This document shows positions 22,380 through 55,269 of a DNA stretch of 64,000 nt, one piece after another. This DNA comes from a virus: positions 35,578 to 99,577 of the IMG/VR virus record IMGVR_UViG_3300046002_004363; one strand, 5' to 3'. The position numbers and the translations under genes were made by a program. The notes beneath the pieces were generated by a model that had not been told where the DNA came from, made no database searches, and saw only the letters and a program-made list of their open reading frames with translations. The first letter of the stretch is position 1. Each line of letters opens with the position of its first letter.

Positions 22380-22409
22380 TTGTTATCTAAAATTAAATAC
22401 CTATATTTG
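22380..22409 (+). promoter_or_regulatory. Promoter A
   Basis: TTG at 22380-22382, 19 bases, then TATATTTG at 22402-22409: the Bacteroidota -33/-7 arrangement. No gene of fair size follows for 470 bases; it should make non-coding RNA A. Confidence 0.65.
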
Positions 22410-22586: not shown

Positions 22587-22610
22587 GTTAAAAAAGTGTT
22601 AAAGTTTTTG
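22587..22610 (+). repeat. Direct repeat upstream of promoter B (copy 2)
   Basis: Second copy of the repeat at 22349-22370; here its TTTTTG end supplies the -33 box of promoter B. Confidence 0.6.
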
Positions 22611-22638
22611 TATATTAAATAACTTGTTATATATTTGC
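22607..22638 (+). promoter_or_regulatory. Promoter B (near-consensus)
   Basis: TTTG at 22607-22610, 19 bases, TATATTTGC at 22630-22638: close to the ideal Bacteroidota promoter. It likely drives the early operon that starts at 22887. Confidence 0.8.
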
Positions 22639-22643
22639 AGTGT

Positions 22644-22876
22644 TAAGTAGAGACAAACTACTTCAAAATAAATCAGCTGATACCACAGGCTTACGATGTG
22701 GAGGTAGTCATAAAAGACTATAAAATAGGGTGTGGTCACTCAGGAATAAGCGGTAAAAAGTAATCCGTGAAGTCCGAGACTACGATACTGCCAACTACAT
22801 AGGTATAAGGTCGTTAAGCGTATAAGGATGTGTTATCCTTACTGAAGAGAGGCAGAACCTCGAAACGCTTTTTAAA
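22644..22876 (+). ncRNA. Structured leader B
   Basis: The leader starts with an AAGTAG/CTACTT hairpin and has a later hairpin TAAGGAT/ATCCTTA (22823-22829 with 22835-22841). Near its end CTGCC (22788-22792, in a loop) can pair with GGCAG (22851-22855) while AAGCGT (22816-22821) pairs with ACGCTT (22865-22870), which is followed by a T run: the same crossing order and the same CTCGAAA spacer (22859-22865) as the leaders at 31885 and 34523. It may be an attenuator for the early operon. An alternative GAGG/CCTC hairpin competes with the pseudoknot. Confidence 0.5.
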
Positions 22877-22886
22877 ATTATACACT

Positions 22887-22997
22887 ATGAAGAATAAACT
22901 TAAGGTTATAGCGCTACTAATTGTGGCGCTATTTCTATTAGCAGTAGCAGAAAAACATTGTGAAACCAAAAATAAATACTATGAAGGGCAGAAGTAA
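22887..22997 (+). CDS. Small membrane peptide
   Basis: A 36-residue peptide with one hydrophobic helix (LKVIALLIVALFLLAVA, residues 5-21) and a polar tail. It is the first start codon after the structured leader B. Small membrane peptides at the start of early operons can act on host membranes or exclude other phages, but no function is shown. Confidence 0.5.
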   Translation: MKNKLKVIALLIVALFLLAVAEKHCETKNKYYEGQK

Positions 22998-23124
22998 TTC
23001 AAGTAGCAGAAGGTTAGCCTTAACCATCAGCACAAGCAGTACAATGAATGATTTTATTAACAAAAAATTAGGAGTAACTAAAGAAAACAAACGACCAATT
23101 TTAATCAAACCAACTAAAAAATAA
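22981..23124 (+). CDS. Small basic peptide
   Basis: A 47-residue Ser/Lys-rich peptide (MKGRSNSSSRRLALTISTSS start) whose ATG lies inside the previous gene, overlapping by 17 bases. It ends 6 bases before the next gene. Unknown function; overlap and spacing support it as real. Confidence 0.4.
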   Translation: MKGRSNSSSRRLALTISTSSTMNDFINKKLGVTKENKRPILIKPTKK

Positions 23125-23130
23125 TATATT

Positions 23131-23319
23131 ATGGACAAATCTTATTCAATTTTTTGCATCGCAAGTCAGTTATTAAAAGATAACGAAAGAGAGTTAGATA
23201 TAGTTTGGCAAAATGCAACCGAACTATACAACGAATTTTTAAATAGTAGTTTCGATAATGTTAACGAATCGGAGTTGGACTGCATAAATGATTTTTTAAA
23301 TTATAAAAATCTAATATAA
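23131..23319 (+). CDS. Small hypothetical early protein
   Basis: A 62-residue acidic helical protein (ASQLLKDNERELDIVWQNAT). It overlaps the next gene by one base (TAATG). No family recognised; typical of small early genes that target host functions. Confidence 0.5.
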   Translation: MDKSYSIFCIASQLLKDNERELDIVWQNATELYNEFLNSSFDNVNESELDCINDFLNYKNLI

Positions 23320-23660
23320 TGAAAACACTACAAATTAATTTGGGATTAAATAATAATCCAATGGATCGTGATCAGGTAGCTAACTACTTTTATGCACTAT
23401 CTGAGTATAGACTAATGGCTTATATCATCAAGGATAAGACCTTTAATGGTGAAGTAGAGCCTACTTTTGTAGCCTTATTAGAGCATAAGTACACACGTGA
23501 CAGCAAAATACTATCTGATGCTGAAAATTGGTGTAGCCTATTCACTCAGGAGTCAATTGCAGTAGTGACTGATAAAATGGAGGTGCTTGCATTCAATACG
23601 AAGTACGAAGGAGATACCTACAAATTTGATTCTAGTCTATTTGAATACATTAAAATATAA
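23319..23660 (+). CDS. Hypothetical early protein
   Basis: A 113-residue protein (NNPMDRDQVANYFYALSEYR near the start) with an alpha-beta look and no known motif. Its ATG overlaps the preceding stop. It precedes the hammerhead ribozyme region. Confidence 0.5.
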   Translation: MKTLQINLGLNNNPMDRDQVANYFYALSEYRLMAYIIKDKTFNGEVEPTFVALLEHKYTRDSKILSDAENWCSLFTQESIAVVTDKMEVLAFNTKYEGDTYKFDSSLFEYIKI

Positions 23661-23664
23661 CCTT

Positions 23665-23730
23665 ATGAGAGCAATTATAAAATTTTTAGAAGAGTTAGCT
23701 AAGAATTGTCCGAGCGAGACAAAATGGTAG
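23665..23730 (+). CDS. 21-residue peptide ending in the ribozyme
   Basis: A short frame MRAIIKFLEELAKNCPSETK-W starts 5 bases after the previous stop. Its TAG stop ends at 23730, which is the first base of ribozyme stem I. A ribosome stopping there would cover stem I, so translation could control ribozyme folding. It may equally be the remnant of a gene cut by the ribozyme element. Confidence 0.35.
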   Translation: MRAIIKFLEELAKNCPSETKW

Positions 23731-23787
23731 GCAAACTGATGAGGTTTTAATAACCGAAACTTGGATCTTCGGATCTGAGTCTTTGTC
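23730..23787 (+). ncRNA. Type I hammerhead ribozyme
   Basis: All core parts are present in order. Stem I: GGCAAA (23730-23735) with TTTGTC (23782-23787), 6 bp. Core CTGATGA at 23736-23742. Stem II: GGTT/AACC (23743-23746, 23752-23755) with a 5-base loop. GAA at 23756-23758. Stem III: nine pairs, 23759-23767 with 23772-23780, capped by a TTCG tetraloop and including the A15.1-U16.1 pair. The cleavage triplet is GTC, predicting cutting after C23781. The open helix is stem I, so it is type I. It would release a 5'-OH mRNA 28 bases upstream of the ATG at 23810. Confidence 0.9.
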
Positions 23788-23809
23788 AAACTTTAAAAAC
23801 AATACTAAT

Positions 23810-24061
23810 ATGAGAACAAAACAAGTTTTAGAATACATAGAAAACACACTAAATCAAACACCTAGACACAATTGTACAGCACTAGCTAAGGCTATAACCC
23901 AAGCTAGTAAAAAATTCAAGCAGGACCAATTCGATATGATGATGTTACTACTGGAAAATAAACCAATAGGAGGTCACACTCATAGCTATGGTTTCCACAC
24001 GTCATACGGAAGAGATCTAATAGACACAATGTCAAACTATTACTATAAATTTAATAACTAA
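23810..24061 (+). CDS. Hypothetical early protein downstream of the ribozyme
   Basis: An 83-residue protein starting MRTKQVLEYIENTLNQTPRH. A TTG start at 23783 is possible on paper but lies within ribozyme stem I, so ATG 23810 is preferred. It contains KKFKQDQFDMMMLLLENKPI and a histidine-rich loop (GGHTHSYGFHTSYG). No known family. Its mRNA would start with a 5'-OH about 28 bases upstream if the ribozyme cuts. Confidence 0.55.
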   Translation: MRTKQVLEYIENTLNQTPRHNCTALAKAITQASKKFKQDQFDMMMLLLENKPIGGHTHSYGFHTSYGRDLIDTMSNYYYKFNN

Positions 24062-45486: not shown

Positions 45487-48400
45487 TTAATTAGCTCTAT
45501 TACCATTTACCTTTAAATCTTTTCCTTCCTTATAACTTGGAAATCTTGACTTCAACTGAGTTTCTTTAACTCCTGGTATTACCCTTGATTTACGGAATTG
45601 ATTATCAGTACTATCCTTCTCTACATCCTCTTTACTTCTAAGAATATCAATCTTTGATTCTTCTATATCCTTGATTATATTCTCTCTGTACTTACCATTT
45701 GTATTTTGGTATATAACATCATTCCTCATCTTAGAATCTATCTTAGAAAAATCATTTACCCCTAAGATACCTAGTGGTGTAAATCTAACTAAGTCAGGTA
45801 TAGCATAATCAGTAGCCATATATCTATCCATCTTCGTTAATGCAGGGAATAATATATTAAACACATCTTGAGTTAACTGTTGCTTGCTTGCTTTTTCAGT
45901 TAATCCAGCCTTCACTGGTGTTTGAAATACATTATCCTTAAACGCATCATAACCTCTTTCACCTCTTCTAGCCTGAATCAACTGCTTATTAGCTAACTCA
46001 GCAGCATAATTGTAGGCTGCCTTTGTAAAGTTATTAGATCTTGATAACATCATTCCCATAAACAATTTAAGACCCTCAGTTGTAGTTATATCACCAATAG
46101 ATTTATTACTTCTGTAATCAGACAATATACTTGCTGTCTTCGTAATTATAAGTCTGTCTATCTGTTTGTTAGACTCTCTTATAGCTCTATTACTTAAGAA
46201 CTTAGTGTCAGACATATACTTCTCTAACTTTAAAGTGTAAGAATCGATTTGGTCTTGCGTAAATAACTTATAACCTTGTTGTGAATTAAGAAGTCCTAAT
46301 ACGCCTATAATCTCATCATCTGATTTACCAAATCCTTTATCCATATCAGAGAAGAATACCTCAACAAGTGATTTATCGTATTCGTATTTACCACTATTTA
46401 TTTCTCCTATTTTGTTCTTAACTTGATTGTCAAATAAATCTCTGTTAACATAACCATAAACAATGTCGTAAGCCGCAGCAAAATCTTTATTTTGCATAAG
46501 TTTATCTCTCATCTTGTTATACTTAACCAAATCCTCTCTAGTCAATTCAATTATATTACCATCAGCATCTTTTTGTATTGGGTAGTCTAATAATGAATTA
46601 TTTACCTCCTTAATGAAATCATCATCGCCTGACAACTTATCGAAAGATACTTTTAATTTCTCTTCATCATCGTCATCTCCTTTGAATAATCCCCATATAG
46701 CTCCAGTTATATAGTTGATTGCTAATGAATAAGAAGCTAATCTTATAGCTCCACCAAGAAATCTTCTTGCATTTCTACCTTCTTGATTCTCTATGTATGT
46801 ATTAACAGCTGTATTCATATCGTTTCTAGCATTCATATCGAAACTAGCAAATAAGTATGCTGCTTTATTCACAAGTGCATTAACTGCTCCAGGAACTGAG
46901 TTCTTAACTTGTTTTGATGCAATCTCCATAATACCAACCTTCTTCTCCATAGGGTTTGTACTACCATATAGATCGGCATTTTCCTGGTTAGCTTTATTAG
47001 ATGCTTTACTTATAGCGTCTTTATACTTCTTAAGGTATTCAACATCTCCTCTTGCTATCTTCTCTACATTAACATCTTCTCCTGTTTGTTTTAAGAATTC
47101 TTCGTAGAAAACACCGTTCCAAGATATTGCATAAGGCTTAACGTCTCCAAATCCTAGTAATGTATCCACAGCTCCAGATGCAGTATCTCTTATAGGGCCT
47201 GTAATATTGGTTTTAATCTTAAGACCTATATTTGATGATGGTAATCCCTTTGATAAGACCTCCTTATTAATACCTTTATTTATAAATTCAGTTCTCTCTG
47301 TATTTATCTTCTTAGATGAAATCATCTTGTTAACATCAGAAGCCTCAGCATTCTCATAGAAACTTCTTATCAACTCTGTTTCACTCTCACCGTCTTCCTT
47401 TATATTCACAAGAGCATTTGACACCTTATTACTGTATGAAATATACTTAGGATTTATAGTCATTAATTGCACCATATTCCCAGCAAAATCGACACCTCTA
47501 CTTATTATACTACCCAATGCTAACGTATAGAATGCTCTATCAGTTCCGTTTAATATCTTATCTGTAAGTGTAGGCTCTGTATGTATAGCTCCGTTTATAA
47601 GTAAGTCAAATTGAGAGTTCAAAGCTTTCTGAATACCCTTTAAATAAGGAAGTACATCGTTGTCTTTTGAATTCTCTGCAATAGCCTCATTTATAGCTTG
47701 AGTTATAGCTGCATACTCAGATCTTAATTGGTGTTGAAATAATACATTCCTAACACTTGAGAAGGCAGATGTGAAAGGGTTTAAATCAATAGGGTGTGCA
47801 GTACCAGTCTTATCTTCTAAGTTACCAGCCTTTATTGACACACTATCAATACCAAACTTGCTTTTTAGTCTAGCTAAATCATTTTCAGCTTGTTTAACCA
47901 CACTATTAAATACAGGATAGTACTCTACAATCATTGGGGCTGCATTAGAGTTTTGAAAGAAATTAGCTTCGTATGCATTGATTTGATTTTCCTCTAATAC
48001 CATTCTAATAGCATTTGCGGCATTCGCTTCCTCTGGTGTTAAATCATCTATTTGATTATTATTAGCTCTAACTTTATCAATAAATCCTTGAACAAGACCC
48101 TTCATATAGTTATCTTCACTTATCTTAGAGTTAGGGTCGCTTACAGTAGCTTCAAAGTATTCCATAGCTGATATAGAAGAAGTTGTTCCTACATTATTCT
48201 TAGCCATTGTATCAATCAAGTGATAAACAATCTTCATATAAGACTCTTGTGGATTCTTTGAGTTCTTATCTAAATCCCTCTTAGCTCTAAGTAATACTGA
48301 TTCTACCTTTTCTTCAGTCGATGCTATTCTTGACATAGCCTTACCAAATGAAGACATAAATGCGTTAAATAAAGGTGTATCTCCATATACCTTTACAGCT

Positions 48401-51400
48401 GCATCTATAGCTGATAAATTAAAGAGCTTAATTCTTCTGTCAATTATTTTTTGAGTTATATTCTTCTTCCTGATATCGTTCCATAAAGCTACAGGATTAA
48501 GAGGCAACCCAATAATCTCTCTTATTTTAAGTGGTATTTTAGCCGCTTTAATTTTATATACCCCAAACTTACCTGCCTTTCTTAACGTATCTACTAATGC
48601 ATTTTTATAATTTGTCTTTAGTTTATATATATATAATTCCTCTGCGTAGTCATTTACAATGTCATCATAAACCATAGAGTTTAATGAGTTCAATACATTT
48701 GTAAGCATATTATCAGGCATAGAATCCACATCTGACTCACTAAGACCAATCAATGCGTCTAATATTCTCCACTCCAAACTACCTTTAGTAGCATTTGATG
48801 ATTCAAATACACTCTTAATTGACGGTAACAATTCTTTTATAGAGGCTTTCTTCTTAGCTATCTCTTCTTCTTTCTTAGCATCCCTTTCTAATTTCTTAGC
48901 TTCCTTATCAGCTAATGTTTCAGGAGTCTCTCTTTCTCTAAATTCAGATTTATTATTCTCTATGAAATCAGATTCACCTTTAGTTAAAGTACCACCAGCA
49001 TCTATAATTTGTTGTATTCTATTTACTTCAGCCACATAATCACTATATGGTTTTACAATTTTATCAAATATTTTCTCAATAGTAGGTAAATCTGTCTCCT
49101 CTAAAGTCAATCCTCTACCAGACAATCTACTAATATAGTCTTTGTATTGTTCGAAGTCAGCATCATCTAAAACCTTCTTAAGTCTCTTAGGCTCTAATTT
49201 AGTAAAGTTTACAATCTTAGATGACATAACTTTATCTCTGTCACCTCTTTTATCCAACTTACCAACCTTTCCAGACATTACATTATCAAATGCATTTTTA
49301 CTATCATCCTTAGCTGTATTTACATCTCTATTTGTGTATAGATTATCTAATACAGTATTTATGTCTAATAGTTTTTCCTCAAAGTTTTGGTCTGTAATAC
49401 TTTGTATTTTAGAAGCAATAGATGTAATAGCTCTGTTTCCTATGTCTCCAGCCTTTAAATCTGTAATAGAAGCTTTTATAAATGCATTTGCTTCTGCTTT
49501 CAAGCTTTTTATTAAGGCAGCCTTATCTTTTTCAGCTACTGTCTTAAGTTTTTGAAAAGCCACACCTATATCATAAGCTTTATTTATTCTTTTTTGCTCG
49601 GTAGCTTCAGGTTTAATACCAACTACTTTATTTATTTGGTCAGATAGTTTTTTAGGCTTCTGCATTCTAACTGAAGGTTTGTCAATTTTAATGATGCTTC
49701 TTCTGTTTCTCTCATTGTTTACAGTTGTTCCTTTAGCTATACCATCTAAACTTTCATATCTAAGTTTATCTCCATCTACATTTGTAATTAAAGACTCTCT
49801 TCCGTCAATAATAGCGTAATCACCATCTTTAAATGTATCTAGTGGTCTCTCTTTAAAATCAATAGCCTTATCAGAAGGAGTAAGCTCCTTAGTTGTTTGC
49901 GCTCTAAGTTCAGAACCTCTCCATTGAGTTACAGCTATATCAAAACCATTCTCATTAGCTATCTGAGTTATAAAAGCACCTCTATGATTGTTGGTAAATG
50001 CTTGACCAGGTCTAACTTCATTGAATCTTTTCTTAGCTTCTTTCTCAAAACCAAGTGGATCAGAATCTATGTCGTATACCTTATCTTTAGAGATTAAAAT
50101 ATTATGCTCTACATTTCCAACTCCAGTCTCTTTTTGACCTTCCATTGTATAGAACATAGCTAAACCTCCAACAGCACTCAAGGCAGAAGCCTCTTCTCTT
50201 GAAGTGATAGCATTATTTCCTTGACCTGTCTTGATTACATCTCTCTTTTGGTCTGAGTAATGCTTGAATACAAAGTTGCCATCTCCATCTTCAGTTAGCT
50301 TTTCAGTTACTTTTACAGGTAATTCTTTTTGTTGTCTTTTTGAAGGAATAGTAGATATTTCTTTTACACCAGATCCATATGGAGCTATAGCTTGTGATGC
50401 TTGACTATTTTTTCCTAAGTATTTTTTAGCCATTTCTTTAGGCATAACCTCAAGTGCGTTTATTTTTGAGTCTGGAACACCTATAACTTCTCCTTCAATT
50501 GTATTTTCATATGTAGAATGATTCGAACCAGCTCTAACACCAGTAGGTTTCAATACTAACATTATATCATTCTGTTCAAAACCATTATCCTTATAAAATC
50601 CATCTCTAAAATCATCTAAATTGAAATATCCATCTAATGATTTTATGTATTTGTGAAATTCAGTATTAGGTTTTTTACCACTTTCATTTATAGCAATCAA
50701 GAATGGTTTCCTACTTGTAGAATTTCTTAAATCATCCCAATTTTCAATATTGTTTAATATATCTGTTATATCCTTAGTCGGTTTTGTTTTTAAGACTTTA
50801 TTTTTAAAGTTATCAAAATCACCAAAATTAGATATCATTTTATCAAATACTTTTTTATTAAATAACTTACTCACAGTAGGAGAACCGCTAATGATAAATA
50901 TGTAATCTGATTTATTAATATTGTTATTGATAGAGTTAATATTCATACTACTAGCCCAGATATCTCCTTCTTTTTGGTGTGCAAAACTAGGTCCTCCATC
51001 AAAATCTTTATTTATTCCTAATTGGTCGGCAACCCAAAACCAAACTTTTTGTTTTTTAGCAACGATATCTTCCAATAAGGAATAGATGTCAACTTTTTTA
51101 TCTGGAGTAACTAATGAATTATCATAAGAATCCTTAAAGTCGATTTTAGATTCACGCTTTTTAGGTATTCTAATTTCAGTTGGATTTCCAATAGGATTAG
51201 TTCCATTATCCAATGTAGACACATCTTCTACTCTTATTTCTTTACCAGTAGCAACCCTTTTAGCAATGGTATTCAACACATCAAAAACCTCGTTAGTTTC
51301 GAATAACTCGACACCAAAAGATTTAGCTATATTGTTTAACCAGTTCTTTATAATTTCCTTTACTCTTGTAGAGAATGATTCATAATTTTCAGCCAACATA

Positions 51401-54400
51401 CCTACCAATTCAGCCAACTTCTCTTCGTCTTGTATATTCTCATCGTACATTGATGCGAAGTCCTCTAATTTAGCCTTTAAAGTAGGATTACCTTCTATCT
51501 TAGAAGTAATAACCTCAATCATTTTCTTTGTTACAACCTGAGCGTTAGCGTCTGTCTTAACCTTATCAAGTAGTATTGCGTGGAATATCTCGTGGGCTAC
51601 AGTTCTTTTGTTTGCTTTAGGCAGGTTTATATGTATCTCTCCATTAATGTAAAGACCAGAAGATTCTTGGTTCTTTGACTCGCCACTAACACTTCTAAAT
51701 GAAGTATCTGTATCGTGAATTATTACCTTTACATTAGGTAGTATTTTTGATATTGCCTTAACACCATTTAAAACAGCTTTTGCTATCTTCTTATCAGCTA
51801 TATTGGCTACCTGTTTTTTAGCTTGATTTATATCTTTAGCTACTTCGATTCCCTTTGACTTTGGTTTTAATCTTTGTTGTATCTCTTTAAATTCGGCTGG
51901 AGTTAGTTTTTTAGGGTTCATACCGTCAGAGCCAGTCTTAACATTCTCAAATGTATCTAAATCAAATAAAGACTCTTGACCCAACTCTTTTCCTATGGCA
52001 ATAGCCTCTTCTCTAACAGAAGGGTCTGCAACTATATTTATATCTATAGATGCCTGATTAGAATTAGGGAATTTATAGATACCAACCTTTACATTGTCAG
52101 CGCCTACCGATTCTGCATTCTCATCTACAAACGACTGAATAGCTTCTGGTGTTAATTCAGACGCATTCATATTCTTTGAAGCCAAAGGAATAACTAATCC
52201 TCCGTCTTCATATTTAGATCCGTCAAGATTCATTGTAGCCCCATCTTCAGATTCAATAGGTAGGGCTTTAACTCTATCCACCTCAATTGAAGTGTATGGA
52301 TCAGATATTTTTGTATTTACTTTTTCTTCACCTTGTTTGGTAACGACTTCTTGTTTGGTGTCTCCTTGCTCCATTTCTTGCAATCCCATTTCGGATTGTC
52401 CTGGCTGTAGCACGCCTTCATTTGTGATTTGCTCTTGAACGGCATCTTCTTGTGTTTTAATGTTATCTAATAATGGTTTAATTTGCGCATCATACTTGGC
52501 ATAAATTTCTTTAGCCTTTGCGTTATCTGATTCAGACACCTTTTTAGCGTCTACTTTCCCATCTGTAATGAAGTTCTCAGGGGTTTCTACATTCTCTGTT
52601 AGTTCATTAAGTTCTTGAACTCTAAGTTTATCTACTTCTTCTTGCAGCCCGACATTGCTTTTTTGCTGTGCTGCGCTAACGGTTTGTTCTTTGGTTGCGG
52701 CTGTAGGCTTTTCTTCACTGGCGATTTGCCCATCAGTTTGCTTTGTTTTTGCATCTTCTTGTATTTTTTGGTTATATAATTCTTTTGCTTTGTTGTTAAT
52801 TACTTCTGCATTAGGCTCTTGTATCTTATCTTTTTCAATGCCTTTGTCTACTTGCTCTTGTATTATAGCTTCTGCCGCTTCTACTTTAAGTTTAGTTTGC
52901 TCTTCTTCAGGAAGTATATCAAACGATGATTTTCTCCCAGAAACAATGTCCTCCCTAAGAGATTCATTCTTAATAAATTCGTCTTTCAATCCAGATAATA
53001 ATACAGCTTTTTGGTCTTTACTTATAGTTTTATCTTCATTTATTTGATTTGCTTTGTTTCTTAAATCAGAGCTTGCAATTTCAATGTCTATAACTTTATC
53101 TATAAGTTTGTCATCTAACTTGGCTGTATTTTGAATAATTTTAGTTAAACCATCTTCATTAGCCTTTACTATTTTATCTATTTTACTCTTAGCCTCTAAT
53201 TTTACAACTTCACTTGCTTCTTTATTATTTAATATTTTAGATAATTCCTCTATCTCTTTATTGTTTTTATCTAAGTTATATGTATAATCTTTTGGAGAAA
53301 ATGCATTTGCTACTTTAGCTATTGCTGTTGGAAATAAATTCAAACCAATAACCATAACGCCTGTATCCTTTACTAGTGACTTTACTTCTTGTTTAGCATT
53401 TTTAAATACATCCTTAGACTCTAAATCTAAAACAACAATATCAGTTATTTTTTGAGCGCCATAGGTTGTTAATTCTTCTTTTAATTCTCCAGTATAGTTT
53501 TTAACAAATTCTTTACCAGCATTAAATGTTTTTGTAGAAAGTGATTCTTTAAATAATTTTCTTGAAGGTTCATTTTTTAATGCTTTGGTTATAATGTTTT
53601 TACCTCCTCCAATCATTTTAAGGGTATTTGATTCAAGCATTTCTGAAGCACCATATAAGCCAGAAGCTAATACCATTTGCAACTTTGAATAATCAGTACT
53701 CCCTTCTGCGTTTGACGTAACCAATTCTGAGTATTTATTACCAGCAGAAGAAGCTCCAATACCATACATCATCGATGTTCCTCCAGTAAGATACCCTAGC
53801 GCTATATTAGGCGTTTGTGATATTAATACATCAGATCCATAATCAAGTATATCGTTTAGGTTTTTCGAATCTTTTACTTGTTTTTGTAGTTTTTCAGCAA
53901 CAAATCTATCCTTGTCATTTTTTAATTCAGCTATCTGCATAGCTGTTATATCTTGCATAGGACCTCCTTTTGCTACATTAGCTAATTGAAGTACTCCTAA
54001 TCCAAAATCAGATACAGCATTTAATAGTTTTCCTGCCTTATCTTCAAAACCATAAGACCTTTTAAATAAATCATATTCCTCCTCAGCAGTAGTTAATTCA
54101 CTAAGGTTTTTTTCGTAATTTTTGTATAGCTTAGTTCTTGTATTTATTTTTAAAGGAAGTTCTGCACTCAATTTATTATATCTATCTAAATCATTTGGAG
54201 ATAAACCATCGTTGTTTTTTGCTAATTTCTCTAATTCAACCAGCTCGCTATTATCTTCCTTTATATCTAAATCTAACGCCTTAAGTATATCAAATTGTTT
54301 ATTAACTTCAGGTGCTTTTATTCCTATTTGGTTAGACGAATTAATTTTCATTCTATCCTTAGTATCATTATCTAGATTATCTAAATAATCATTAGCTAAA

Positions 54401-55269
54401 GAAAGTTTTTTATCTTCTACTCTTTTCTTAACCTCTAAATTGATAGCTCCTTCGGTTAATATATCGTCAGTTATTTCATCTTCTTTTGCGCCTTGTTTTA
54501 AAAGTATTTTCTTATACTCCTCTTTTGCTTTAGGTAAAAATGTTACATCTGATTTTAATTGCTCAACTTCTTCTTTACTTGATGGCGCTCCTGGAATATA
54601 TGGCAGTATCTTATTCCATACATTTGAAGCTCCTTGAGTTATTGTATTCCAAACTCCTTTTCCTTGAACTTCATTATTTACTTCTTCAATTACTTGTTGT
54701 TCGTAGTTTTCTGGAAGAGCAGTTGCGTTTCTAAAGTCATTAACAAACACCTTCTCTTCTTCTCTTTTAACTTCTTGTTTAAATAGAGACGCTTCTTTTT
54801 TAGCTTCCTTAATTTCAGGTTTATCAAATTGTTCTTTTTTTACTGAAACAGATTTAATAGCAGAAGGAGTCTTAACATCAACTTTTGTTTTTGATGCCTG
54901 AACTCCTGCTTTCTTTTGCTCTTCTTTATCTTTAAAACCAAACTTATTAATTAAATCTTCACTTTTCCCAGCAGAAGATGCCGAAGCCCCAGTTTGAATA
55001 GGTTTTCCTCCAACCGATGTAGGTTTTCTTTCTCGTTGTTGTGTAGGAGAAACCGAAGGAGTTTTTGTTGAAGTGGTAGTCGAGTTTTGATTTTTTTTTT
55101 CAGGGTCTGTTTTTGGTTCTTGAGGTTCAGCATACTTCATATTAAAAGAAGACTCTAATTCTTCATTTGAAGCATAGTTCTCAGAAATGTACTGTAACTT
55201 CTCAGGAGTTAATTCAACACCTTTGCTAGAATATAATTGTTTTACAAAATTTGTATCAAGCTTTGACAT
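45487..55269 (-). CDS. Giant multidomain virion (ejection/polyvalent) protein
   Basis: A 3260-residue protein, by far the longest here. Visible parts: a low-complexity Q/T/K-rich N-terminal 150 residues; helical bundles with a hydrophobic, Gly-rich patch near 480-520 (NIALGYLTGGTSMMYGIGAS); charged coiled coils to about 1050; a zincin with HEIFHAILLDK (His1226-Glu-x-x-His1230) and a Glu-rich follow-up; an unassigned alpha/beta region near 1400-1600 (DFDGGPSFAHQKEGDIW near 1427); a region near 1680-1800 (EASALSAVGGLAMFYT); more coiled coils; and a hydrophobic stretch near 2875-2900 (IRLASYSLAINYITGAIWGL). This matches the polyvalent-protein or internal-virion type injected with DNA. It lies in the minus-strand tail/ejection block. 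Confidence 0.7.
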   Translation of the reverse strand: MSKLDTNFVKQLYSSKGVELTPEKLQYISENYASNEELESSFNMKYAEPQEPKTDPEKKNQNSTTTSTKTPSVSPTQQRERKPTSVGGKPIQTGASASSAGKSEDLINKFGFKDKEEQKKAGVQASKTKVDVKTPSAIKSVSVKKEQFDKPEIKEAKKEASLFKQEVKREEEKVFVNDFRNATALPENYEQQVIEEVNNEVQGKGVWNTITQGASNVWNKILPYIPGAPSSKEEVEQLKSDVTFLPKAKEEYKKILLKQGAKEDEITDDILTEGAINLEVKKRVEDKKLSLANDYLDNLDNDTKDRMKINSSNQIGIKAPEVNKQFDILKALDLDIKEDNSELVELEKLAKNNDGLSPNDLDRYNKLSAELPLKINTRTKLYKNYEKNLSELTTAEEEYDLFKRSYGFEDKAGKLLNAVSDFGLGVLQLANVAKGGPMQDITAMQIAELKNDKDRFVAEKLQKQVKDSKNLNDILDYGSDVLISQTPNIALGYLTGGTSMMYGIGASSAGNKYSELVTSNAEGSTDYSKLQMVLASGLYGASEMLESNTLKMIGGGKNIITKALKNEPSRKLFKESLSTKTFNAGKEFVKNYTGELKEELTTYGAQKITDIVVLDLESKDVFKNAKQEVKSLVKDTGVMVIGLNLFPTAIAKVANAFSPKDYTYNLDKNNKEIEELSKILNNKEASEVVKLEAKSKIDKIVKANEDGLTKIIQNTAKLDDKLIDKVIDIEIASSDLRNKANQINEDKTISKDQKAVLLSGLKDEFIKNESLREDIVSGRKSSFDILPEEEQTKLKVEAAEAIIQEQVDKGIEKDKIQEPNAEVINNKAKELYNQKIQEDAKTKQTDGQIASEEKPTAATKEQTVSAAQQKSNVGLQEEVDKLRVQELNELTENVETPENFITDGKVDAKKVSESDNAKAKEIYAKYDAQIKPLLDNIKTQEDAVQEQITNEGVLQPGQSEMGLQEMEQGDTKQEVVTKQGEEKVNTKISDPYTSIEVDRVKALPIESEDGATMNLDGSKYEDGGLVIPLASKNMNASELTPEAIQSFVDENAESVGADNVKVGIYKFPNSNQASIDINIVADPSVREEAIAIGKELGQESLFDLDTFENVKTGSDGMNPKKLTPAEFKEIQQRLKPKSKGIEVAKDINQAKKQVANIADKKIAKAVLNGVKAISKILPNVKVIIHDTDTSFRSVSGESKNQESSGLYINGEIHINLPKANKRTVAHEIFHAILLDKVKTDANAQVVTKKMIEVITSKIEGNPTLKAKLEDFASMYDENIQDEEKLAELVGMLAENYESFSTRVKEIIKNWLNNIAKSFGVELFETNEVFDVLNTIAKRVATGKEIRVEDVSTLDNGTNPIGNPTEIRIPKKRESKIDFKDSYDNSLVTPDKKVDIYSLLEDIVAKKQKVWFWVADQLGINKDFDGGPSFAHQKEGDIWASSMNINSINNNINKSDYIFIISGSPTVSKLFNKKVFDKMISNFGDFDNFKNKVLKTKPTKDITDILNNIENWDDLRNSTSRKPFLIAINESGKKPNTEFHKYIKSLDGYFNLDDFRDGFYKDNGFEQNDIMLVLKPTGVRAGSNHSTYENTIEGEVIGVPDSKINALEVMPKEMAKKYLGKNSQASQAIAPYGSGVKEISTIPSKRQQKELPVKVTEKLTEDGDGNFVFKHYSDQKRDVIKTGQGNNAITSREEASALSAVGGLAMFYTMEGQKETGVGNVEHNILISKDKVYDIDSDPLGFEKEAKKRFNEVRPGQAFTNNHRGAFITQIANENGFDIAVTQWRGSELRAQTTKELTPSDKAIDFKERPLDTFKDGDYAIIDGRESLITNVDGDKLRYESLDGIAKGTTVNNERNRRSIIKIDKPSVRMQKPKKLSDQINKVVGIKPEATEQKRINKAYDIGVAFQKLKTVAEKDKAALIKSLKAEANAFIKASITDLKAGDIGNRAITSIASKIQSITDQNFEEKLLDINTVLDNLYTNRDVNTAKDDSKNAFDNVMSGKVGKLDKRGDRDKVMSSKIVNFTKLEPKRLKKVLDDADFEQYKDYISRLSGRGLTLEETDLPTIEKIFDKIVKPYSDYVAEVNRIQQIIDAGGTLTKGESDFIENNKSEFRERETPETLADKEAKKLERDAKKEEEIAKKKASIKELLPSIKSVFESSNATKGSLEWRILDALIGLSESDVDSMPDNMLTNVLNSLNSMVYDDIVNDYAEELYIYKLKTNYKNALVDTLRKAGKFGVYKIKAAKIPLKIREIIGLPLNPVALWNDIRKKNITQKIIDRRIKLFNLSAIDAAVKVYGDTPLFNAFMSSFGKAMSRIASTEEKVESVLLRAKRDLDKNSKNPQESYMKIVYHLIDTMAKNNVGTTSSISAMEYFEATVSDPNSKISEDNYMKGLVQGFIDKVRANNNQIDDLTPEEANAANAIRMVLEENQINAYEANFFQNSNAAPMIVEYYPVFNSVVKQAENDLARLKSKFGIDSVSIKAGNLEDKTGTAHPIDLNPFTSAFSSVRNVLFQHQLRSEYAAITQAINEAIAENSKDNDVLPYLKGIQKALNSQFDLLINGAIHTEPTLTDKILNGTDRAFYTLALGSIISRGVDFAGNMVQLMTINPKYISYSNKVSNALVNIKEDGESETELIRSFYENAEASDVNKMISSKKINTERTEFINKGINKEVLSKGLPSSNIGLKIKTNITGPIRDTASGAVDTLLGFGDVKPYAISWNGVFYEEFLKQTGEDVNVEKIARGDVEYLKKYKDAISKASNKANQENADLYGSTNPMEKKVGIMEIASKQVKNSVPGAVNALVNKAAYLFASFDMNARNDMNTAVNTYIENQEGRNARRFLGGAIRLASYSLAINYITGAIWGLFKGDDDDEEKLKVSFDKLSGDDDFIKEVNNSLLDYPIQKDADGNIIELTREDLVKYNKMRDKLMQNKDFAAAYDIVYGYVNRDLFDNQVKNKIGEINSGKYEYDKSLVEVFFSDMDKGFGKSDDEIIGVLGLLNSQQGYKLFTQDQIDSYTLKLEKYMSDTKFLSNRAIRESNKQIDRLIITKTASILSDYRSNKSIGDITTTEGLKLFMGMMLSRSNNFTKAAYNYAAELANKQLIQARRGERGYDAFKDNVFQTPVKAGLTEKASKQQLTQDVFNILFPALTKMDRYMATDYAIPDLVRFTPLGILGVNDFSKIDSKMRNDVIYQNTNGKYRENIIKDIEESKIDILRSKEDVEKDSTDNQFRKSRVIPGVKETQLKSRFPSYKEGKDLKVNGNRAN

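Follow-up and report, generated by a model that had tools for sequence, protein, structure and literature searches.

The window, that is, the whole stretch of 64,000 nucleotides analysed here, is part of a 99.6-kb virus record related to 68 GenBank records of Elemovirus (Flavobacterium phage). On its plus strand a block of small genes starts past a non-coding stretch and runs into replication genes (a DnaD-like helicase loader, a primase/helicase and an exonuclease-like gene); the portal gene lies on the minus strand, and we also noticed a single open reading frame of 3260 amino acids at 45487-55269 (-). The region upstream of the small genes was scanned with a pattern taken from the Bacteroidetes -33/-7 promoter consensus. 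A promoter-like site of the form TTG-N19-TATATTTG was found at 22380-22409 (+), although this match is weak on its own because the plus strand of the window has 19 matches to the relaxed pattern. A further site, TTTG-N19-TATATTTG at 22607-22637 (+), lies in a region conserved in Elemovirus and has the strict form, of which there are 5 occurrences on the same strand; transcription from it would start near 22642. Gene order and these Bacteroidetes-type motifs suggest that the block is an early operon. A start at this position, together with the type III cut site described below, would define a putative untranslated leader RNA of about 180 nt at 22642-22822 (+), for which no convincing Rfam match was obtained. 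The DNA at 22600-22891 is about 93% identical to the 68 Elemovirus records, and the leader, conserved to the same degree, would become a separate small RNA if the type III ribozyme cuts.

The coding part of the block begins with a 36-aa ORF with a hydrophobic N-terminus (22887-22997), whose start codon lies 16 nt past the end of the type III ribozyme. It is followed on the same strand by a 47-aa ORF read from the sequence (22981-23124), a 62-aa ORF from the ORF list (23131-23319), a 113-aa ORF conserved in Elemovirus (23319-23660) and a 21-aa sORF, MRAIIKFLEELAKNCPSETKW (23665-23730), which in the aligned relatives changes only at the third positions of P and E codons. The first two and the 62-aa ORF have no Pfam match, the last of these also no PHROG match, and the small proteins flanking the ribozymes in general had neither a PHROG function nor a Pfam match above the cut-off. 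The last base of the sORF stop codon, 23730, is at the same time the first base of stem I of a type I hammerhead (23730-23787, +). An A-rich stretch of 28 nt, the predicted 5'-OH leader of the downstream mRNA (23782-23809, +), separates the predicted cut of this ribozyme from an 83-aa gene (23810-24061, +) with relatives in 73 IMG/VR loci.

The type I element was read directly from the sequence. Stem I is formed by GGCAAA at 23730-23735 and TTTGTC at 23782-23787 (6 pairs), stem II by GGTT and AACC at 23743-23746 and 23752-23755 (4 pairs, loop TTAAT), and stem III by 23759-23767 and 23772-23780 (9 pairs, closed by a C(UUCG)G loop). The core consists of CTGATGA at 23736-23742 and GAA at 23756-23758, with A15.1 at 23759 and C17 at 23781, so that the invariant CUGANGA, GAAA, the A15.1-U16.1 pair and the NUH site, here GUC, are all present. 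The sequence-only reading had described the same core and the same 6, 4 and 9 pairs, to which we add that three of the 19 pairs are G.U wobbles, one in stem I and two in stem III. The cut, predicted between C23781 and T23782, falls where that reading had placed it, 28 nt ahead of the ATG at 23810. When the 58-mer was folded alone, exactly the type I structure was obtained, at -14.3 kcal/mol. It had also been argued that such a set would hardly arise by chance, and the scans bear this out: the bipartite core was observed once in the window against 0.02 expected, and the strict full motif had no match in 4.95 Mb of Markov-1 sequence modelled on the fetched loci.

A covariance search, proposed in the same reading as a check, turned out differently. 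With Rfam 15 at gathering cut-offs nothing was reported in the window, the hammerhead type I model included, and Hammerhead_1 was absent from the type I stretch even at E<=10. The top match below threshold at this site was RAGATH-1-hammerhead, with 24.2 bits against a cut-off of 56.3; its alignment takes in a hairpin, TTGTC/GACAA at 23706-23722, that lies within the sORF and is shorter, at 4 bp, in some Elemovirus strains. Membership in RAGATH-1 (RF03152) was rejected on this score and because the upstream hairpin is only partly kept. The Rfam gathering cut-off is a detection threshold and stands outside the structural definition of a hammerhead; phage copies from three other loci (L145, L165 and L185) likewise reached only 21.8-30.2 bits with Hammerhead_1 against a cut-off of 34. 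Since the cut-offs missed the copies that were checked, the class is probably under-annotated. The stretch has three helices in type I order with stem I open, and these covary in relatives, with the exceptions of stem II in elemoF and an A.A in stem III of Elemovirus. By structure, 23730-23787 is thus a genuine type I hammerhead, and it is predicted to cleave itself.

A second core was first spotted upstream in relatives, and a type III scan then located a complete copy in the window, which the sequence-only reading had not mentioned. This type III hammerhead occupies 22816-22870 (+). Stem III pairs 22816-22821 with 22865-22870, stem I (8 bp) spans 22823-22841 and stem II (4 bp) 22849-22861; the core is CTGAAGA at 22842-22848 and GAA at 22862-22864, and H17 is A22822 in a GUA site. 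The cut is predicted between 22822 and 22823, 64 nt ahead of the ATG at 22887. The fold has an energy of -15.3 kcal/mol (z -2.58) and a probability of 0.86 in its sequence context, and the motif had no match in 2.55 Mb of Markov-1 sequence. In Rfam at E 10, no hammerhead, Hammerhead_3 included, was reported at 22816-22870. With its core, its NUH site and three covarying helices in type III order, the element is filed as a hammerhead by structure, and self-cleavage is again predicted. A scan for further ribozymes with an intact core found none in the window or in the remaining 35.6 kb of the record.

Both sites are present in the 68 Elemovirus records. In the type III alignment of nine copies, five of them distinct, 98.9% of the pair cells are standard and six pairs are changed on both sides; none of 500 shuffles was as good, either on cells paired or on the covariation score. 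In the type I alignment, five pairs are changed on both sides and 2 of 500 shuffles were as good, so that the compensatory changes anticipated by the sequence-only reading were found, the covariation being stronger for type III than for type I. Loss of core bases in close relatives, which would have counted against the ribozyme in that reading, was not seen: core variation in the sampled relatives of both ribozymes is confined to N7, a hammerhead position that is free to vary. Outside the core, the elemoF copy has two of the four pairs of type I stem II broken, and the Elemovirus copies carry one A.A mismatch in type I stem III. Amid the varying stems, the loops GUGUU and CAGAA of type III and UUAAU of type I are invariant, as are the bases flanking stem I in the type I alignment. 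Pairing of the 3' tail with UUAAU of loop II, as a pseudoknot, was considered, UUAA being self-complementary here, but rejected, since by inspection other phages could not form it. A chance resemblance, or some other structured RNA, would agree with the silence of Rfam at gathering thresholds and with the lack of a hammerhead match for type III even at E 10. Against the empty scans of shuffled sequence and the conservation and covariation of both sites, however, we regard this as scarcely credible. In addition, several Elemovirus records (L004:1557-1664, MT497067.1; L005-L009) have a 108-nt antisense CDS, e.g. QMP84842.1, annotated over the type I ribozyme, which is probably a false gene call.

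The fold of the type I copy was less clear in context. When at least 20 upstream bases were included, the nearest-neighbour energies preferred pairing of TTTGTC (23782-23787) with GACAAA at 23718-23723 (+), inside the sORF, over pairing with GGCAAA, and the type I fold dropped to about 1-2%; tertiary contacts are outside this model. The fold probability of other phage type I hammerheads also falls, to a median of 0.10 with a 40-nt flank, and since loss of the fold with flanks is this common, the effect of GACAAA may reflect the limits of the model. Competition between GACAAA and stem I might also allow translation-dependent control. A ribozyme acting as a conditional switch, with translation or a bound factor deciding whether it cuts, would make use of this competitor, which dominates the predicted ensemble, and of the stop codon that overlaps stem I here and often elsewhere; because the stop codon of the sORF (23665-23730) reaches into stem I by one base, a terminating ribosome would cover the core. 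Phage gene gaps are short anyway, however, and the overlap may only reflect compactness; moreover, some Elemovirus strains have GAA for GAG and thereby lack the end pair of the competitor, and the type III ribozyme does without such an arrangement, with a probability of 0.86 in context. We therefore consider a switch unlikely.

Release of the start codon by type I cleavage was rejected. The region around the ATG at 23810 has a mean unpaired probability near 0.8, and the predicted accessibility of the start codon is 0.79 before and 0.80 after cleavage; cleavage is therefore not needed for exposing the start, which speaks against the idea that the cut simply unmasks the start. In nine viral copies an ATG lies within or just past stem I. 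Leaderless mRNAs were considered for these and dropped, a later ATG being found about 15-35 nt on, mostly behind a purine-rich, SD-like stretch.

We also looked at the order of the two ribozymes in relatives. Type III is followed by type I within about 2 kb in the window, in Elemovirus and in four further loci (L012, L196, L111 and L143); another order was seen in L117, L127 and the cellular contig L323. The genes between the two differ among relatives, the pair stays with type III first, and the distance from cut to cut in these loci ranges from 299 to about 2130 nt, from which it follows that what lies inside the bracket changes and the bracket itself persists. Such a bracket could in principle excise an RNA that is ligated by an RtcB-type enzyme into a circle, as proposed for retrozymes (PMC7229834). 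The ends left by a hammerhead, a 5'-OH and a 2',3'-cyclic-phosphate, fit RtcB substrates. The excised piece, however, bears ORFs and varies over the range just given, its two ends are made by different ribozymes and no splint to match them was seen, and most phage loci have type I copies only and hence no bracket, so that we think circularization very improbable.

Over 3 kb, the distant contig L196 and Elemovirus share DNA only at the type III ribozyme of L196 (84.9%), and the only stretch of L196 that matches DNA of Cellulophaga phage phi19:3 covers a type I ribozyme. In the phi19:3 genome this ribozyme takes up the gap from gp051 to gp050, with the gp051 stop codon within stem I and the gp050 start 34 nt past the cut. 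To see how far the type I element extends among phages, two pattern scans of IMG/VR and the relatives of the 83-aa gene were combined and passed through a strict scanner; the survey pattern picks core bases and is independent of gene context. At least 161 distinct viral type I hammerheads were obtained. Among the matches listed, an ATG ORF follows within 150 nt in 158 of the 161 (median distance from the cut, 27 nt). For the first set of 151, again among the matches listed, the distance from cut to ATG has an interquartile range of 24-34 nt, and the preceding stop codon ends at a median of 1 nt beyond where stem I begins. A comparable ORF was present in only 34 of the 151 on the antisense strand (among the matches listed), and random positions gave a flat distance profile. 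Some loci have several copies, up to six of type I with a median of 585 nt between cuts among the matches listed.

The strict scan was passed by 100 of 120 viral but only 12 of 119 cellular loci among the matches listed, and the pattern in cellular genome contigs was accordingly set aside as mostly chance. Several individual contigs deserve mention. Phage contigs L086-L108 (e.g. L092, L094, L097 and L106) each have between one and four type I hammerheads, and most copies are followed by the same leader, AACTGCTAGGAG, and then an ATG; the terminase DNA of L092 is shared with Pelagibacter phages. L165, a phage contig of 66.6 kb for which the phage collection contained no DNA match, has six type I hammerheads. 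A Betaproteobacteria-1 RNA (RF02932, 100.3 bits) was found at L093:3371-3489, on a phage contig that also bears type I hammerheads, and in an uncultured bacterium (L286:1544-3650, CAIJNK010000008.1) about 2 kb of sequence contains four type III hammerheads, with AGATCTTT or AAAGATCTTT after each.

Hammerheads are frequent in selfish elements (PMC3088659), and the position of the ribozymes shifts among distant relatives of the 83-aa gene, both of which would suit passengers, selfish or neutral, that move from phage to phage and are of no use to their carrier. We hold this to be improbable, as orientation and gene distance are nearly fixed, both ribozymes show compensatory changes in their stems, and the type III ribozyme is the only DNA common to L196 and Elemovirus.

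In our reading, it is likely that two cis-acting hammerheads of opposite topology process one phage transcript into separate mRNAs. The analysis establishes sequence, fold, conservation, covariation and placement, and from these we infer catalysis, cleavage in infected cells and separate decay of the pieces. Cuts at 22822/22823 (type III) and 23781/23782 (type I), most likely made during transcription, would give the leader RNA of about 180 nt, a 959-nt mRNA (22823-23781) with five small ORFs, and the remaining operon, which would have a 5'-OH and a 28-nt leader with little structure. Because type III cleavage keeps the ribozyme body on the 3' product, the 959-nt mRNA would start with a hairpin flush with its 5'-OH end; because type I cleavage keeps the body on the 5' product, it would end, in a 2',3'-cyclic-phosphate, directly after the stem III hairpin. 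From what holds for bacterial mRNA decay in general, such end structures would be expected to alter the decay of the RNA. We propose that this serves to set the boundaries of the mRNAs without promoters, terminators or host nucleases, and gives the first gene block a stability and expression separate from those of the remaining operon. The sequence-only reading had proposed that the type I ribozyme separates two halves of the operon. Conservation, covariation and placement in many phages favour separation; the two halves have to be given up, since the upstream type III hammerhead is also present and there would be at least three pieces.

Whether serial hammerheads are a general device of mRNA maturation in tailed phages is a more tentative matter, to which we give slightly less than even confidence. 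On this view an operon may begin with a type III copy, and type I copies may follow in one gene gap after another; every cut would then cap the 3' end of the RNA before it with the ribozyme body and start the next mRNA with a 5'-OH leader of about 27 nt. If true, mono- or oligocistronic mRNAs with protected ends would arise with no need for terminators or host RNases, and transcript maps of such phages may mistake ribozyme cuts for promoters or RNase sites. One arrangement, fixed in its relation to genes, recurs across many phage contigs; it can be put to a direct test because cultured phages carry it, namely Elemovirus on Flavobacterium sp. BAL314 and Cellulophaga phage phi19:3.

Several known systems resemble this arrangement in part. 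In haloviruses HF1/HF2, the HHphage hammerhead lies 13 nt upstream of the start of an early helicase gene, and a 5' end has been mapped no more than three nt away from its cut site (Perreault et al. 2011, PMC3088659). This too is a hammerhead in the early genes of a lytic DNA virus near a start codon, although it is a core-variant ribozyme of an archaeal virus, whereas here two topologies with canonical cores occur in one operon of a Flavobacterium-type phage. The same paper reports that polycistronic RNAs of Agrobacterium (ardA), Azorhizobium and Clostridium scindens carry hammerheads in tandem; these cleave in vitro, the Agrobacterium set also in E. coli, and their purpose is stated to be unknown (PMC3088659). 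They similarly place several ribozymes on one polycistronic RNA, but they lie in bacterial chromosome or prophage loci, and the text consulted describes neither a III-then-I bracket nor a fixed spacing to start codons. RAGATH-1 (RF03152) is the nearest Rfam model to the type I copy and its alignment includes an upstream hairpin; the type I copy, however, falls below its cut-off and has that hairpin inside an sORF. The theta (HDV-like) ribozymes of gut phages show that Caudoviricetes process their own transcripts with small self-cleaving ribozymes (PMC10879173), although these have another fold and are tied to tRNA 3' ends, not to gaps between protein genes. Retrozymes, according to two papers (PMC4918200, PMC7229834), also release a defined RNA by hammerheads on one transcript, but their ribozymes sit in repeats of eukaryotic retroelements, whereas here unlike types occur in a phage operon. 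The role of hammerheads in bacteria and phages was still called open in 2017 (PMC6155905), and later work noted ribozymes that lie close to one another and to genes of Mu-like phages (PMC10085705). No account of a III-then-I bracket or a gap-filling series in free phages was met in the literature searched, which took in few subscription papers and little of bioRxiv. Phage, tandem and start-codon-adjacent hammerheads are thus already known, and it is the bracket of type III and type I and the scale of the pattern that appear to be new.
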